Notes under the pieces: generated by a model | Told to the model about the DNA's origin: nothing | Database searches by the model: none | What the model saw: only the letters and a program-made list of their open reading frames with translations | Part shown: positions 5,758-14,149 of the stretch, one piece after another | Numbering within the stretch: the first letter of the stretch is position 1 | Layout: each line of letters starts with the position of its first letter | Position numbers and translations under genes: made by a program | Source: Acidovorax carolinensis | Lineage (GTDB): Bacteria; Pseudomonadota; Gammaproteobacteria; Burkholderiales; Burkholderiaceae_C | Direction of reading: 5' to 3' | DNA length: 64,000 nucleotides | Assembly: GCF_002157145.1 (NCBI RefSeq) | Contig: NZ_CP021361.1 | Location: 3,929,501 to 3,993,500 of the forward strand

Positions 5758-7605
5758 TTACCAGCAAACTAGGCGATCAGAAACCAAAGCCAACCTCTGT
5801 GTCGCCCTGGTAGCCGCCACATAAAGCACCCGCGCAGCCTCCCTGCGCGCCTGCAGTTCGGCGTGCGAGAGCGCCTCTGCGCACTTTCCCGCCCCGTGGG
5901 CAGGATCCAGCGCCCCCACCCCCGATATCGCCACCACCGGAAACTCCAGCCCCTTGCTGACCTTCATGGTCATGACCTTCACGCTGTTAGCCAGCGGGTC
6001 GTAGTCGCCCACGCCGAGGCGGTTTTGCACGGGCAGGCCGCGCTTGGCCAGTGTGCTGGCACACAGGTCGCGGGTTTTGGCGTCGCGGCACAGCACGGCC
6101 ATGTCGCCCCAAGCAAAGCCATCGGCGTGGGCGCCCTGCAATAGCTCCGCAATCTTGGCAGCCTGTTCGGGCAGAGTCAGCAAATTGATGATGATGGGCT
6201 CGGGGCCATCGCGGCCGCAACTAACAGGTTTAACGAGAGGAATGCCGTCGTCATCCCGATCTTCGGCCGTGAGCAAATCGCCCGCGATGGCGTTGGCGGT
6301 TTGCAGAATCTGCCGCGTGTTGCGGTAATTGATCTTGAGGATGGTGGTGCGGCCCTGGGCCTGGATGCCCACGCTTTTGAAGCTGAAGTTCTTCTTGCGG
6401 CCCCGGTCGTAGATGCTCTGCGCGTCGTCGTACAGAACCAGCAGGGTGTTGGTGGTGGGGTCCACCATTTGCGTGACGAGCTTGAGCCACTCGGGCGCAA
6501 AGTCGTGGCCTTCGTCGATGAGCACGGCGAGGTATTGACGCGTGGGGATATGGCCGCGCTCCACGCCGGTGATGACGCGCTGCACCATGTCGGCAAAGAA
6601 GGCTTCTTGCGGCAGGTTGTTGGCGGGCAGGCCCTGGCCGTAAGCCACGAGCTGGGCACGGGCCCATTTGTGAAAGTGCACGCAGTGCACGCGCTCACCC
6701 AGGCCCTTGGCGGCCAAGGTGGCGGCCAGCTTCACGGCCAGGGGCTCGTTGTAGCAAAGCACCAGCACGGGCTTGCCTGCAGCCGTGGCGCGGGCCAGGT
6801 ATTCGGCGCGGTAGCCGAGGATCATGGTTTTGCCCGAACCCGCCACGCCGTGGATGACGCGGTGGCCGTCACCCAGGCTGCGGGCCAGTTGCTCTTGCTG
6901 CAGGTCCATCACGCGCAGCATGTCGGGCACTTCGGCCTGCATGTCGGCCTCGTCAAACAGGCTGGCCTGATCGGGGATGCGCACCTGCGGAAAGAGGATC
7001 CAGCGCACCCGGTCGATTTGCGGCAAGGTGAGCGTCTGGTAGCGCTCGTAGGGAAACATTTCCCACAGGCGGCTCTGGAAAACCTCCGCGTCCACGCTCT
7101 CGGTCATCTCGTCGCTGCAGATCACGCGGTGGGCGGCGATGGCTTTGTCCAGCTGCGCATCGGTGAACTGCCTGCGCGTGATGTTGGGCAACACCACGCC
7201 GTAGCTCCACGCAAAAACCACCTCGCCCTGGCGGCGGCCATCGGGGTGCACCAGGCGCTTGTCGGCGCGCAGGGCGCCGAGCACGGCGTGGGCGTAATTG
7301 CGCGCTTGGGCGAAAGGGGATTGGATGTGCTTGGGCCCGCCGCTGGCGTTGTCCAGAATAGTCCACTCGTCTTTGTCAGCCTGCACGATGGTGCTCAGGC
7401 GGAAGTCTTTGACTTCCAGAATCAAGAGGCCCCGGCTGGGGTGCAGCACGATAAAGTCGGGATGCAGTTGCTGGGGACCCACGGGCACGTCATACCAGAG
7501 CAGGTAGTCGTCGTCGAGCTTGTGCTCCAGACGCTCTGCCAGGCGCCGCTCTCCGCTTGTCATGCGCGAAACACATGCGCCCAATGCTGGTATCAATGTC
7601 GCCAT
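5758..7605 (-). CDS. NERD-domain UvrD/Rep-like superfamily I helicase
   Basis: A 615-residue protein combining an N-terminal NERD (nuclease-related) domain, about residues 20-150 with DFIVLHPSRGLLILEVKD, and an SF1 helicase core. Helicase motifs are Walker A GVAGSGKT (about 255), Walker B VLIDEGHDF, motif III-like LYDDAQSIYD, motif IV-like INYRNTRQI, motif V MKVSKGLEFPVV and motif VI YVAATRATQRL. It probably acts on DNA or RNA with processing activity; no precise role is known. Such proteins occur in accessory and defence-like contexts, but the neighbours here are ordinary metabolic genes. The ATG is preceded by a weak AGGTGG. Confidence 0.85.
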   Translation of the reverse strand: MATLIPALGACVSRMTSGERRLAERLEHKLDDDYLLWYDVPVGPQQLHPDFIVLHPSRGLLILEVKDFRLSTIVQADKDEWTILDNASGGPKHIQSPFAQARNYAHAVLGALRADKRLVHPDGRRQGEVVFAWSYGVVLPNITRRQFTDAQLDKAIAAHRVICSDEMTESVDAEVFQSRLWEMFPYERYQTLTLPQIDRVRWILFPQVRIPDQASLFDEADMQAEVPDMLRVMDLQQEQLARSLGDGHRVIHGVAGSGKTMILGYRAEYLARATAAGKPVLVLCYNEPLAVKLAATLAAKGLGERVHCVHFHKWARAQLVAYGQGLPANNLPQEAFFADMVQRVITGVERGHIPTRQYLAVLIDEGHDFAPEWLKLVTQMVDPTTNTLLVLYDDAQSIYDRGRKKNFSFKSVGIQAQGRTTILKINYRNTRQILQTANAIAGDLLTAEDRDDDGIPLVKPVSCGRDGPEPIIINLLTLPEQAAKIAELLQGAHADGFAWGDMAVLCRDAKTRDLCASTLAKRGLPVQNRLGVGDYDPLANSVKVMTMKVSKGLEFPVVAISGVGALDPAHGAGKCAEALSHAELQARREAARVLYVAATRATQRLALVSDRLVCW

Positions 7606-9548: not shown

Positions 9549-12467
9549 TCAGCCCAGGTGATTGCCCAGGATGCCCGCCAGCTCGAACATGCCTGCGCTG
9601 TCCTTGCCGAACACGGCGCGCAGCTTGTCGTCGGCGACGATGGTGCGCTTGTCCTTGGGGTCTTGCAGGTTGTGGGCCTTGATGTATTCCCACATCTTCT
9701 TGACAGCCTCGGGCCGGGCCACGGGCTCGGCGCCGATCACGGCAGCCAGTGCGGCGCTGGGCGCCTTGCCGGCAGCGGCCTTGCGGGGGGTCTTGGCGGC
9801 GGCCGTCTTGGTGGCAGGGGCCTTTTTGGTGGCGGCAGGTTTTGCGGCTTTTTTGGCTGCAGCGCTTGTCCTGCTTGCGCTAGCAGCTCCTGTTTTTGCA
9901 GCAGCACCGGGGCGCGGCGGGAACTTGGATGGCGCAAACTCGAAGTTGACCTTGGCTGCCTCCTTGTCCCACGCCAGGTGGGCCTTGAAGGCGCGGCGGG
10001 TGCGCATGCTGACGAACTTGTCGAGCAGATCGGTCTTGCCGGTGGCCAGCAGCTTGGTCATCTGCTCGCGCTCCACGGGCTGCTGCAGGATGATCTTGCC
10101 GCTCTTGAACGTGCAGCTGGGCGTGGGCTGGGCGGCGGTGGGCACGGCCTTGCTGCACACGTAGTTGCTGCCATGCTCATGCACTTCTGAGCCGCAGATG
10201 GGGCAGGCGCCCAGCGATGCGTCTTCAAACTCCACGATCTCACCGGACTCTTCGCCCTTCTTGTCGTCGCCAAAGTCGAATTCGAGCTTGTAGTTGTGCG
10301 CCTCGTCGTCGTACTTGATGACGATTTCGGACGTGAACGGCCAGCCCGCCTTGGAGCGGAAGCCTTCCAGCGGGCCGATCTTCTTGTCGCGCAGCAGGGC
10401 GTTGGCCTCGGCCGTCTCGAACGTGCGGCCGGCGGGCGACTTGCCGAAGCTGAAACCGCAGCCTTCGGCGCCCGGCTTGCCCACGCAGGCAAAGCGGCGG
10501 TAGTTCTCTTTCACCACGCCGCCGCAGTTGGGGCATGGGGATTCGAGCGTGGCGTAGTCGCCGGGGATGGTGTCGCGGTCGTATTCCTTGGCCTTTTTCA
10601 CCATGCGCTCGGTCATGGCGGCGATCTGCTGCATGAACGCTTCGCGCGAGAGCAGACCCTTTTCCATCTGCGAGAGCTTGAACTCCCATTCGCCCGTGAG
10701 GTCGGCGCGGCAAAGTTCTTCCACCTCCAGCCCGCGCAGCAGCGTCATGAGCTGGAAGGCCTTGGCCGTGGGGATGATCTCGCGGCCTTCGCGCAGCATG
10801 TATTTTTCGGTCAGCAGGCCTTCGATGATGGCCGCGCGCGTGGCTGGCGTGCCCAGGCCTTTTTCCTGCATCGCGCTGCGCAGTTCTTCGTCGTCGATCT
10901 GCTTGCCCGCGCTTTCCATGGCGCCCAGCAGCGTGGCTTCGGAGTAGCGGGCGGGCGGCTTGGTCTTGAGGCCCTTGGGGTCGGCGGCCAGGGTGTTGAC
11001 CATCTCACCGGGTTTCACGGGCACCAGGTTCTGGCCCTTGTCGCCCTCTTTGCCGCCTTCCACTTCATCGGCGGCTTCCTTGCCGTAGATGGCCAGCCAG
11101 CCAGGCTTGACCAGCACCTTGCCCTCGGTCTTGAAGCTGTGCGGTGCGACGGTCGAAATGCGCGTGGTCACCGTGTATTCGGCACTCGGGAAGAACACGG
11201 CCATGAAGCGGCGCACGACCAGGTCGTACAGCTTCTGCTCGGCTTCAGAGAGGCCACTCGGCGCCTGCAGCGTGGGGATGATGGCAAAGTGATCGCTCAC
11301 CTTGCTGTTGTCAAAGATGCGCTTGGACGGGCGCACGTAGTTGTTGTTCAGCGCCGTGAGCGCGTGCGGCGCCAGGTGCCGCATGCCGCTGTCGGCCAGC
11401 ATTTCGAAGGTCTGCTTGGCCACGGGCAGATAGTCCTCGGGCAGCGCGCGCGAGTCGGTACGCGGGTAGGTCAGGGCCTTGTGGCGCTCGTACAGGCTTT
11501 GCGCCAGCGCCAGCGTGGTCTTGGCCGAGAAGCCGAACTTGCCGTTGGCCTCGCGCTGCAGGCTGGTCAAATCGAACAGCAGGGGCGAGGCCTGCGTGGT
11601 GGGCTTGCTCTCTTCGGTGACCGTGGCCTGCTTGCCGCGCACGGCGTTGGCAATGGCCTGGGCTTCGGCGGCCGACCACACGCGGTCCGCGCGGGCTTCT
11701 GCGTCTTCGCTTTTCTTCCACTTCGGATCGAACCACTTGGCGGGGTACTCGCCCGCTTCGGCGCCAAAGGTAGCGTGGATTTCCCAGTAGTCGCGGCTGA
11801 TGAACTTGCGGATCTTTTCTTCACGCTCCACCACCAGCGACAGCGTGGGCGTCTGCACCCGGCCCACGGTGGTCAGAAAGAACCCGCCATCGCGCGAGTT
11901 GAACGCCGTCATGGCGCGCGTGCCGTTGATGCCCACCAGCCAGTCGGCCTCGGATCGGCTGCGGGCTGCACTGGCCAGGCCCGCCATCTGCTGCTCGGTG
12001 CGCAGCGCGTCAAAGCCGTCGCGAATGGCCTGCGGTGTCATGGACTGCAGCCACAGGCGCTTGACGGGCTTGCCCAGGGGTTTGGCGCCGCCCGCGTACT
12101 GCTCGATCAGGCGAAAGATCAGCTCGCCCTCGCGGCCCGCGTCGCAGGCGTTGATGAGTTCGGTCACATCCTTGCGCTTGGCCTGCTTGACCACCGCGTT
12201 CAGGCGGCTCTTGGTCTTGTCCACGGGCTTCAAGTCAAAGTACGGCGGGATCACGGGCAGGTGGGCAAAGCTCCACTTGCCGCGCTTCACGTCAAACTCT
12301 TCGGGCGCCTGGATTTCCACCAGGTGGCCGACGGCGCTGGTGACTACATAGCGGTCGTTCTCGAAGTGGTCGTCGTGCTTGTCGAACTTGCCGGCCACGG
12401 GGGTCAGTGCGCGCACGATGTCTTGCGCGACAGAGGGTTTTTCTGCAATTACCAGGGTCTTGGTCAT
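9549..12467 (-). CDS. topB: DNA topoisomerase III with H1-like tail and SWIB domain
   Basis: A 972-residue type IA topoisomerase, far longer than the 653 residues of E. coli TopB. The toprim domain opens with VIAEKPSVAQ and carries the acidic NACDAGREGELIFR; the catalytic tyrosine is in LTYPRTDSR. Two C-terminal zinc-ribbon-like segments follow (CPNCGG..C..C and CPICGS..C). After them comes an Ala/Lys/Pro-rich stretch of about 70 residues resembling bacterial histone-H1-like tails, then a SWIB domain (KMWEYIKAHNLQDPKDKRT to the end). Part of the tail is encoded by a repeat copy at 9851-9899. The ATG at 12467 begins the conserved MTKTLVIAEK. It is divergent from the SET-domain gene. Confidence 0.93.
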   Translation of the reverse strand: MTKTLVIAEKPSVAQDIVRALTPVAGKFDKHDDHFENDRYVVTSAVGHLVEIQAPEEFDVKRGKWSFAHLPVIPPYFDLKPVDKTKSRLNAVVKQAKRKDVTELINACDAGREGELIFRLIEQYAGGAKPLGKPVKRLWLQSMTPQAIRDGFDALRTEQQMAGLASAARSRSEADWLVGINGTRAMTAFNSRDGGFFLTTVGRVQTPTLSLVVEREEKIRKFISRDYWEIHATFGAEAGEYPAKWFDPKWKKSEDAEARADRVWSAAEAQAIANAVRGKQATVTEESKPTTQASPLLFDLTSLQREANGKFGFSAKTTLALAQSLYERHKALTYPRTDSRALPEDYLPVAKQTFEMLADSGMRHLAPHALTALNNNYVRPSKRIFDNSKVSDHFAIIPTLQAPSGLSEAEQKLYDLVVRRFMAVFFPSAEYTVTTRISTVAPHSFKTEGKVLVKPGWLAIYGKEAADEVEGGKEGDKGQNLVPVKPGEMVNTLAADPKGLKTKPPARYSEATLLGAMESAGKQIDDEELRSAMQEKGLGTPATRAAIIEGLLTEKYMLREGREIIPTAKAFQLMTLLRGLEVEELCRADLTGEWEFKLSQMEKGLLSREAFMQQIAAMTERMVKKAKEYDRDTIPGDYATLESPCPNCGGVVKENYRRFACVGKPGAEGCGFSFGKSPAGRTFETAEANALLRDKKIGPLEGFRSKAGWPFTSEIVIKYDDEAHNYKLEFDFGDDKKGEESGEIVEFEDASLGACPICGSEVHEHGSNYVCSKAVPTAAQPTPSCTFKSGKIILQQPVEREQMTKLLATGKTDLLDKFVSMRTRRAFKAHLAWDKEAAKVNFEFAPSKFPPRPGAAAKTGAASASRTSAAAKKAAKPAATKKAPATKTAAAKTPRKAAAGKAPSAALAAVIGAEPVARPEAVKKMWEYIKAHNLQDPKDKRTIVADDKLRAVFGKDSAGMFELAGILGNHLG
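9851..9899 (-). repeat. Interspersed AGCGCTT repeat, copy 4, inside topB
   Basis: Repeat within the coding sequence (CTGCAGCGCTTG, then TTGCGCTAGCAGCTCC TG). It is read in frame as AAKTGAASASRTSAAAKKA in the Lys/Ala-rich linker of topoisomerase III. Confidence 0.6.
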
Positions 12468-12533
12468 TTGGGGGCTCTCGCCAGTCATTCTGGTTGCCCG
12501 GGTCCGGCCCGGGCGCTTCTACAATTCGGGTCT

Positions 12534-12570
12534 CACGCGCATACACGCGCACGCACACACATGTGTGCAC
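12534..12570. other. 37-nt alternating purine-pyrimidine tract (Z-DNA candidate)
   Basis: Every step from 12534 to 12570 alternates pyrimidine and purine (mostly CA and CG steps) without a break. It lies between topB and the SET gene. Such tracts are prone to flip to left-handed DNA under negative supercoiling. TACAAT at 12520-12525 could be a -10 element for the SET gene, which would put the tract in its leader. Confidence 0.6.
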
Positions 12571-12594
12571 CATCAAGTTAACAGAGTTTTTGCC

Positions 12595-13212
12595 ATGCCC
12601 CGCTTTGCATCGCCCGCCGCCCCTACCGTTGCCCCGGGCCGCCGCATCCAGACCCGGCGCTCGGGCGTGCATGGCAAGGGCGTGTTTGCCGTGCAGGATA
12701 TTGCGGAAGGCGAAGTCCTTGTCGAATACACGGGCGAAGTGATCGGCTGGCAGGAAGCGCAGGACCGCCACCCGCACGACCCCCTGCAACCCAACCACAC
12801 GTTCTACTTCCATGTGGATGAAGACCGTGTGATCGACGCAAAGTTCGGCGGCAATTCCTCGCGCTGGATCAACCACAGCTGCAACCCCAACTGCTACGCC
12901 GACGAGCGGGACGGCCGCATTTTCATCACGGCGCTGCGTAACATCAAGGCGGGCGAAGAGCTGAACTACGACTACGGCCTGATCATCGAAGAGCGCTACA
13001 CCAAGAAGCTCAAGGCCGAATACCCCTGCTGGTGCGGCAGCAAGAACTGCCGGGGCACGCTGCTGGCGCCCAAGCGCGGCTGGGCGCCGCCCGTGCCGCT
13101 GCCACCGTCCAAGGCCCGGGATGCTGCGCCCCAAAAGGCCAGGCAAAACAAGAAATCCAAGGCGACTGCCCAGCCTGTGGCGCCCAAGCCCCGCCGCAAC
13201 CGCCCACAGTGA
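12595..13212 (+). CDS. SET-domain protein-lysine N-methyltransferase
   Basis: A 205-residue SET-domain methyltransferase. Motifs are GKGVFA near the start, the SAM/active-site NHSCNPNC (93-100) and GEELNYDY (120-127), and a post-SET zinc cluster CWCGSKNCRG (145-154). The tail is basic (KARQNKKSKATAQP and more). SET enzymes methylate protein lysines; chlamydial members act on histone-H1-like proteins. The ATG at 12595 begins the conserved region. Its TGA overlaps the birA ATG as TGATG. The neighbouring Lys-rich TopB tail is an obvious candidate substrate, which is only inference. Confidence 0.88.
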   Translation: MPRFASPAAPTVAPGRRIQTRRSGVHGKGVFAVQDIAEGEVLVEYTGEVIGWQEAQDRHPHDPLQPNHTFYFHVDEDRVIDAKFGGNSSRWINHSCNPNCYADERDGRIFITALRNIKAGEELNYDYGLIIEERYTKKLKAEYPCWCGSKNCRGTLLAPKRGWAPPVPLPPSKARDAAPQKARQNKKSKATAQPVAPKPRRNRPQ

Positions 13213-14149
13213 TGCAGCAGCCCGTTCGCTGGCCCGCCGAGGCCATCTGGGAGGCGGTGGCCCCGCTGCTGCCCGGCTTCACGGTCGAGGTGCTGCCCAG
13301 CATCGACTCCACCAACACCGAACTCATGCGCCGCGCGCGCGCGGGCCGGTGCGATCCCACCTTGCTGGTGGCCGAGCAGCAGACGGCAGGGCGCGGGCGG
13401 CTGGGGCGCGTGTGGCAAAGCGGTGTGGACGGGAGCAGCGCCGGGCCGCCCAAGCTGCGAAGGCCCCCTTGGGGGGCAGCGCCGCACACGAAGCGGCAAG
13501 CGTGGGGGCTATGCCATCCCTCATGATGTCCCTGGGCCTGCCGCTGGCGCCTGCCGACTGGTCGGGCCTGTCGCTGGCCGTGGGAGTGAGCGTGGCCGAA
13601 AGCTTGCAGCCCGAGCTGCCCGCCGTGGGTAACGATAAGGCGGCCCGGATTGGTTTGAAGTGGCCCAACGACCTGTGGCTGGGCGGCGCGAACGGCGATC
13701 GCAAACTGGGTGGCATCCTGGTGGAGACGGCGAGTTTTGTGGCGCCCCAGGCGGCCGCTGCACCGGCCGGAGCCCGCACCGCACGCTACGTGGTGGTGGG
13801 CATCGGCATCAACGTGCTGCCGCGCAGCGCCGAGGGCATGAGCCTGCCGCCCGGCAGCCTGCAGGACGTGGAACCCGGCCTGGATGCGCCCACAGCCCTG
13901 CTGCGCATCGTGCCCGCGCTGGTGTCCATGCTGCAGGCATTCGAAGGCTATGGTTTTGCCCCCATGCAGGCGCGCTTTGCCACGCGCGACGTGCTGCAGG
14001 GACGCGTGGTGACGCTGAGCGACGGGCAGACCGGCACGGCCCATGGCGTGGCCGACGATGGCGCGCTACTGGTGCACACCGCGCAGGGCATGCAGGCCAT
14101 CACCAGTTCTGAAATCAGCGTGCGGCCCGCGGCCACGCCCCCCCACTGA
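13212..14149 (+). pseudogene. birA: Biotin-[acetyl-CoA-carboxylase] ligase, frame broken inside a repeat
   Basis: Two frames together encode BirA. From 13212 the first frame gives the N-terminal catalytic half with DSTNTEL and the biotinyl-AMP loop GRGRLGR, then runs through a repeat and stops at 13526. The second frame carries MSLGLPLAPADWSGLSLAV, the ligase signature KWPNDLWL, GILVE and the C-terminal domain to 14149. The repeat sits in the loop right after GRGRLGR. The shift equals one missing base, perhaps in the C5/G6 runs of the repeat; restoring it would give one protein with an inserted loop of about 25 residues. Alternatively an ATGA overlap at 13523-13526 could make two chains. BirA is normally essential, so a fully dead gene would be surprising unless another copy exists. 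Confidence 0.8.
13439..13509. repeat. Second repeat family (CCCCCTTGGGGGG core) inserted in birA
   Basis: A GC-rich segment starting GGGCCGCCCAAGCTGCGAAG, with a central near-palindrome CCCCCTTGGGGGG (13464-13476), ending CGGCAAGCGTGGGGG. It interrupts the conserved birA sequence between GRVWQSG and MSLGLPL. A relative lies at 16549-16601. Confidence 0.7.

Follow-up and report, generated by a model that had tools for sequence, protein, structure and literature searches.

A conserved alternating pyrimidine-purine tract between putative facing promoters of topB and a SET-domain gene in the family of Acidovorax carolinensis

The stretch analysed here, referred to as the window, comprises 64,000 nucleotides of the Acidovorax carolinensis contig NZ_CP021361.1 and carries topB, the gene of a DNA topoisomerase III that ends in a SWIB domain, head to head with a gene encoding a SET-domain protein. 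The region between the two genes contains a perfectly alternating pyrimidine-purine tract, flanked by two putative -10 elements that face each other (Table 1). The alternation of the tract, not its sequence, is conserved in most of the lineages sampled. We tentatively propose, at a little less than an even chance, that the tract and its facing promoters may act as a supercoiling-responsive element coupling the output of topB and of the SET gene to DNA topology, a reading derived from comparison of sequences.

Table 1. Features of the topB-SET region, in window coordinates
Feature	Position	Strand	Remarks
topB, DNA topoisomerase III	9549..12467	-	Toprim, Topoisom_bac core, two Toprim_Crpt repeats, Lys/Ala tail, SWIB
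SWIB domain of TopB	9555..9761	-	residues 910-978 of the 979-aa ORF; E-value 4.5e-26
Lys/Ala-rich TopB tail before SWIB	9762..9935	-	residues 852-909; borders approximate
TACAAT, putative -10 element of the SET gene	12520..12525	+	conserved pattern beside the tract
Perfectly alternating pyrimidine-purine tract, 37 nt	12534..12570	.	Z-DNA-prone; longest such run in the window
TGnTAnnnT (TGTTAACTT), putative extended -10 element of topB	12575..12583	-	conserved pattern beside the tract
SET-domain protein, 205 aa	12595..13212	+	post-SET Cys cluster, Lys-containing C-terminal tail
birA-like biotin protein ligase	13121..14149	+	listed open reading frame (ORF), true start probably further downstream; next gene of the conserved block

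The alternating tract

The family comparisons are based on 160 genomes from the GTDB family to which the window belongs and on a second set of 80 named loci. A panel of 40 family loci was fetched (743,438 bases, approximately 34 genera), of which 34 have SET and six (L044-L049) are SET-less. Regarding the intergenic regions, 150 were tried, L155 and L164 were dropped, and 148 were kept (142 with SET and the six SET-less). These 148 regions are not independent: 15 duplicate others exactly, so that 133 are unique, many of them still close relatives, and the panel is the safer base.

The next longest alternating run in the window has 15 nt, and in 800 kb of the same genome, taken as 40 stretches, the longest has 18. 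Among the 142 family intergenic regions with SET, a run of at least 14 nt is present in 128 and one of at least 20 nt in 102, while shuffled sequences average 7-10; the corresponding counts for the 133 unique regions are 116 and 89. A run of at least 14 nt was found in 28 of the 40 panel loci (about 26 genera). All 23 panel runs of at least 20 nt lie within the 14,302 bases upstream of TopB, and there are none in the other 729 kb (binomial p 3e-40).

Substitutions in the tract are mostly transitions. Between anchors placed by pattern, and using only disjoint close pairs of related family loci, there are 53 transitions and 11 transversions, as opposed to 40 and 49 in the flanks (p 2e-6). This trimmed count was used in place of an untrimmed one (231:127 versus 96:146), which mixes the tract with its edges. 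The excess of transitions fits selection for alternation and not for a fixed sequence, since selection for alternation predicts it. The tract has what would be expected of a Z-DNA-forming element in this respect, a long alternating run that exceeds chance and is apparently kept by selection. The length from anchor to anchor has no parity bias (66 odd, 69 even), and a search of the promoter region against plasmids gave no match.

Alternatively, instead of being a Z-DNA element, the tract could be bound by a protein recognising short motifs (for example GTGCGCAC) or could be a mutational relic of CA/CG slippage. The words GCGC and TGTGCAC do recur in many tracts, and the estimate of the B-Z energy discussed below is not decisive. 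However, no fixed sequence is found in the 28 tract-bearing panel loci while the alternation holds, the steps are a mixture of CG, CA, TG and TA with no single repeat unit, and neither the transition excess over the flanks nor the lack of such runs in the other 729 kb, which slippage would also be expected to affect, is in line with this account, which we consider unlikely.

Putative facing promoter elements

In the direction of SET, 88% of the 131 regions with a tract have the pattern TA[CTG]AAT or TATACT close to it (shuffle mean 1%; reversed direction 0%). In the direction of topB, TGnTAnnnT lies ahead of the tract in 76% of the same regions (shuffle mean 3%; reversed direction 0%). The 28 tract-bearing panel loci have the left (topB) element in 25 cases and the right (SET) element in 27. 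If transcription begins about 7 nt past the -10 elements, the start sites would be at about 12568 for topB and about 12532 for SET. RNA folding of the two leaders is not unusual (z -1.46 and -0.90), and scanning the window for Rfam families and tRNAs returned nothing. The topB leader has a GC-rich inverted repeat (window 12496-12514), which forms a 7-bp hairpin in the fold.

A putative topology switch

In the proposed supercoiling-responsive element, topB and SET would start at opposite borders of the tract and both transcripts would traverse it; with start sites at these borders, two polymerases could hardly occupy the promoters together. High negative supercoiling would flip the tract to Z-DNA, and the flip would bias the two facing promoters. 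The consequence may be a homeostatic control of topB, whose product removes negative supercoils. The SET protein, in turn, would most likely modify Lys-rich proteins that are bound to the chromosome of the same cell, namely SWIB proteins, SET itself and perhaps TopB; this is the weakest step of the scheme and a guess. An extended version, in which a topology switch at the only type IA topoisomerase would also set the SET level, such that supercoiling picks either the topoisomerase or a methylase of chromosomal proteins, appears to us rather unlikely.

Several observations weigh against the element as proposed. A consensus scan for sigma-70 promoters (-35 and -10 separated by 16-18 nt) found none; with no -35 match, the promoters are assigned from their -10 elements. 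A run of at least 14 nt is absent from 17 of the 148 regions (and from 12 of the 40 panel loci), including L044, L045, L047 and the deepest branch of the family (L052, L068, L069 and L070); four of the 17 (L040, L047, L160 and L176) have an imperfect alternation (p 0.013-0.033). No such run was found within 400-500 bases upstream of TopB in 22 loci outside the family (19 loci plus L186, L202 and L213; longest run 12). The distant type IA enzyme of L276, at 25% identity, is kept apart from the 19 and also has no run; in L194 the DNA upstream of TopB lies beyond the locus, and the same gene is shown by L263. Since it is missing outside the family and in some family loci, the tract is no general requirement for TopB. 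It is kept, with at least 14 nt, in three of the six SET-less loci, and for this reason may serve topB (or birA) alone; a link between tract and SET presence was considered and dropped as not significant (27/36 versus 3/6, p 0.33). In addition, a rough B-Z estimate puts the midpoint for the tract near -0.041, and runs of 15-18 nt overlap with it at -0.039 to -0.045.

Conservation of the gene pair

SET is present in 151 of the 160 family genomes, and the TopB model is over its cut-off in 159. Among the matches listed (about 150 per table), 139 of the 160 genomes have both genes, 10 having no TopB match listed and 11 no SET match listed. In all 139 the two genes are divergent neighbours, with a gap of 57-720 nt (median 155). 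TopB is visible in 79 of the 80 named loci, the contig of the remaining one (L155) stopping 193 bases upstream, and in each of the 79 it is head to head with SET. The sequence-only reading, which had described a TopB with a Lys/Ala tail and a SWIB domain beside a divergent SET protein, had called for a check of whether the pair is kept in relatives; within the family these counts answer it in the affirmative, and the domains themselves score far over their cut-offs.

The neighbourhood of the pair is conserved as well. The order topB-SET-birA is kept in all 34 SET-bearing panel loci, mostly with a SPOR gene further along, and topB and birA adjoin in all six SET-less loci. Because birA keeps its order and adjoins TopB where SET is missing, the adjacency of TopB and SET is partly inherited synteny. 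The SET-less loci represent four genera, and six of 115 family genera are without SET.

At the level of the order, SET occurs in 48 of 200 sampled genomes, 41 of them outside the family, and 34 loci were fetched from 31 of these 41. TopB is visible in four of the 34: on the same strand as SET in L186, on the same strand 4.6 kb away in L194, and convergent with and adjacent to SET in L202 and L213 (both from family f6), where SET lies between gyrB and TopB. In one genus of family f32 (L185 2620-5614, L187 4428-7424 and L256 2819-5811), SET begins 1-3 bases past the gyrB stop. Five other genomes (G312, G314, G365, G246 and G328) have TopB and SET on the same contig at a distance of 8-33 kb, with the identity of TopB checked in all five, and in the remaining non-family genomes the two are farther apart or on separate contigs. 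Neither TopB nor GyrB was found near SET in 19 further non-family loci (L237-L252 from outside the order and L253-L255 from f32, with little upstream sequence in L240). Within the order, the link between SET and topoisomerase genes takes more than one form, but it is not general.

These data bear on a simpler explanation, namely that SET is a passenger of synteny, carried along, with no functional tie to TopB, in an old block (topB, SET, birA and often the SPOR gene) that may once have been located close to the replication origin. The constant gene order in the family, with and without SET, is what this explanation expects, and so is the placement of most non-family SET genes away from TopB, including the loci with neither topoisomerase gene. 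Nevertheless, some lineages with a broken block (f6 and the f32 genus) still have SET next to topoisomerase genes, and the promoter region shared with topB is under constraint. We regard the passenger explanation as a serious possibility, although as a probable one only to a limited degree.

TopB, its tail and the SWIB domain

The topB ORF as listed (9549-12488, minus strand) encodes 979 residues, and its start is probably at 12467, because the alignment to NF011313 begins at residue 8. Pfam matches cover Toprim (11-146), Topoisom_bac (169-620), two Toprim_Crpt stretches and SWIB (910-978), the closest solved relative of the SWIB domain being UAF30 (5.2e-15). The protein scores 2024 bits against NF011313 (cut-off 1088), with residues 8-978 aligned to profile positions 1-987 of 988, and belongs to this family; as the profile spans nearly the whole protein, TopB-SWIB is an already curated family. 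A single match to PF01131 (type IA) was found in the genome, and it is TopB, which is thus the only type IA topoisomerase of this organism as far as PF01131 detects.

SWIB-fused TopB proteins were defined as those whose match reaches the SWIB end of the NF011313 profile. This is the case for 72 of the 150 TopB matches listed, and the other 78 stop at profile positions 866-934, so that the pairing of SET with TopB is wider than the SWIB fusion. In a quick tree of TopB (45 sequences, with SH-aLRT support only), the fusion needs three changes: there is a main fused clade (support 81, with one unfused member, L144) and a separate fused pair, L050 and L051. SWIB is present in all 160 family genomes. 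Among the matches listed, 72 genomes have a fused TopB and 74 have a single SWIB match, with no genome in both groups; since no fused-TopB genome has only one match, the fusion is additional to another SWIB gene. The genome of the window has such a second, stand-alone SWIB protein with an N-terminal Lys/Ala tail (L032 1390-1722; near 2369071). It resembles the end of TopB in miniature, and is a possible substrate of SET and a possible source of the TopB fusion. An association of the tract with the SWIB fusion was rejected (11/16 versus 19/26, p 1).

The tail before the SWIB domain has about 60 residues (58-64 depending on the cuts), with 11 K, 3 R and 25 A, and Lys/Ala-rich TopB tails, with and without SWIB, are found in most family loci. 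It had been described as H1-like in the sequence-only reading. The Lys/Ala-rich composition was confirmed, and to this alone the term refers, as no H1 or Hc family is among the Pfam matches of TopB at E 0.001 and the tail is not assigned to H1. The same reading held that SET methylates lysines of the TopB tail (or H1-like proteins) and that the tail explains the pairing. The catalytic residues of SET are intact, a Lys-rich tail is encoded next door, and a review (PMC3980110) describes in vitro methylation of histones by SET proteins from other bacteria. On the other side, the tail is kept with 9-13 Lys in five of the six SET-less loci (that of L046 is Arg-rich, with 3 Lys), and in f6 (L202 and L213), where SET is adjacent to TopB, it is short and has one Lys, which does not favour the idea that SET and TopB are paired because of the tail. 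The chlamydial precedent is divided: according to PMC2904774, the Chlamydia trachomatis SET protein NUE did not methylate Hc1 in vitro, while the C. pneumoniae homologue is reported to be active on it. Taken as a whole, we find this explanation of the pairing quite improbable. Covariation of tail and SET, in the form of a loss of Lys or a Lys-to-Arg change in loci without SET, was sought and not seen in five of the six SET-less loci; the mean Lys share of the tail is somewhat lower without SET, a comparison of only six related loci that was not used as support. Neither comparison, that of tails in loci without SET or that of the f6 tails beside SET, supports a conserved role of the tail as a substrate, although both would be compatible with methylation.

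The SET protein

The SET ORF as listed opens at TTG 12379, and its start was taken as ATG 12595 because of the alignment to relatives. The protein matches PF00856 (7.4e-25), and an alignment of 13 members shows little or no variation in the motifs HGxGV, NHxCxPN and GEE..xDY and in the post-SET Cys residues. The signature of a SET-domain lysine methyltransferase (NHSCxPN, GEELxYDY and post-SET Cys) is present in the sequence, and the best solved relative is human KMT2A (MLL1; 1.3e-27). A search of viral contigs with the SET protein found no relative, and in 50 plasmid records the relatives have less than 60% identity. A second SET copy, away from TopB, is present in three family members whose genomes are small (L217, L218 and L219). 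The idea that the C-terminal tail of SET tracks the SWIB fusion was dropped, as a larger set (82 fused of 112) has many fused lineages with short SET tails.

The SET protein could also be a nucleomodulin, secreted to act on eukaryotic histones in the manner reported for LegAS4 and BtSET, in which case its genomic position would be incidental. SET effectors of Burkholderia thailandensis and Bordetella are listed in the same review (PMC3980110), and the protein has a weak match to LegAS4, of 46.9 bits with a cut-off of 550. Against such a role stand the conserved genomic place and the occurrence of SET in nearly the whole family, the 80 named loci including environmental taxa such as Acidovorax soli, Rhodoferax and Limnohabitans, and we deem it extremely improbable for this protein.

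Relation to known systems

The protein parts are of known kinds. The window TopB is alike to NF011313 (PRK14724 DNA topoisomerase III) over nearly its whole length, SWIB included, and does not differ from it as a protein; that family's model does not extend to the SET partner or the promoter element. The SET and post-SET motifs align with those of MLL/KMT2-type SET domains, the best solved relatives, whereas the window SET is a small stand-alone bacterial protein. For chlamydiae, an association of SET, SWIB and topoisomerase has already been suggested in print, with NUE, a SWIB protein and TopA-SWIB forming the same three-part gene set in one genome (PMC6426960), and the statement of the sequence-only reading that no functional pairing is described for this group has to be narrowed to that extent. 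The genome of the window has a Chlamydia-like set, since SET, a stand-alone SWIB protein and a SWIB-topoisomerase are all encoded in it. The chlamydial genes are at distant locus numbers (CT460, CT643 and CT737; PMC6426960). Here, in contrast, the fusion is to TopB, and SET is adjacent and divergent, with a shared promoter tract. A 2011 abstract is also said to name SWIB and topoisomerases together with bacterial SET.

Sensing of topology by promoter DNA is established for supercoiling-responsive bacterial promoters with GC-rich discriminators (PMC8422995). The present case differs in having a long alternating tract between two facing promoters. We know of no described example of this arrangement. 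A few narrow literature searches found no description of the family pair with a Z-prone facing-promoter region, and as far as we know this strictly conserved combination is undescribed.

Elsewhere in the window, positions 5758-7605 encode a protein with a NERD nuclease domain and a UvrD-type helicase, a combination that is often found in defence or repair genes.

Conclusions

It would be unusual for a bacterial promoter to hold, at a well-defined position, a natural Z-DNA-prone element that is conserved. As the tract is located at a gene whose product relaxes negative supercoils, the old question of whether Z-DNA serves as a sensor of supercoiling becomes directly testable. In addition, the SET proteins of environmental bacteria, for which a host target has been assumed, gain a possible cellular context in the topoisomerase genes.

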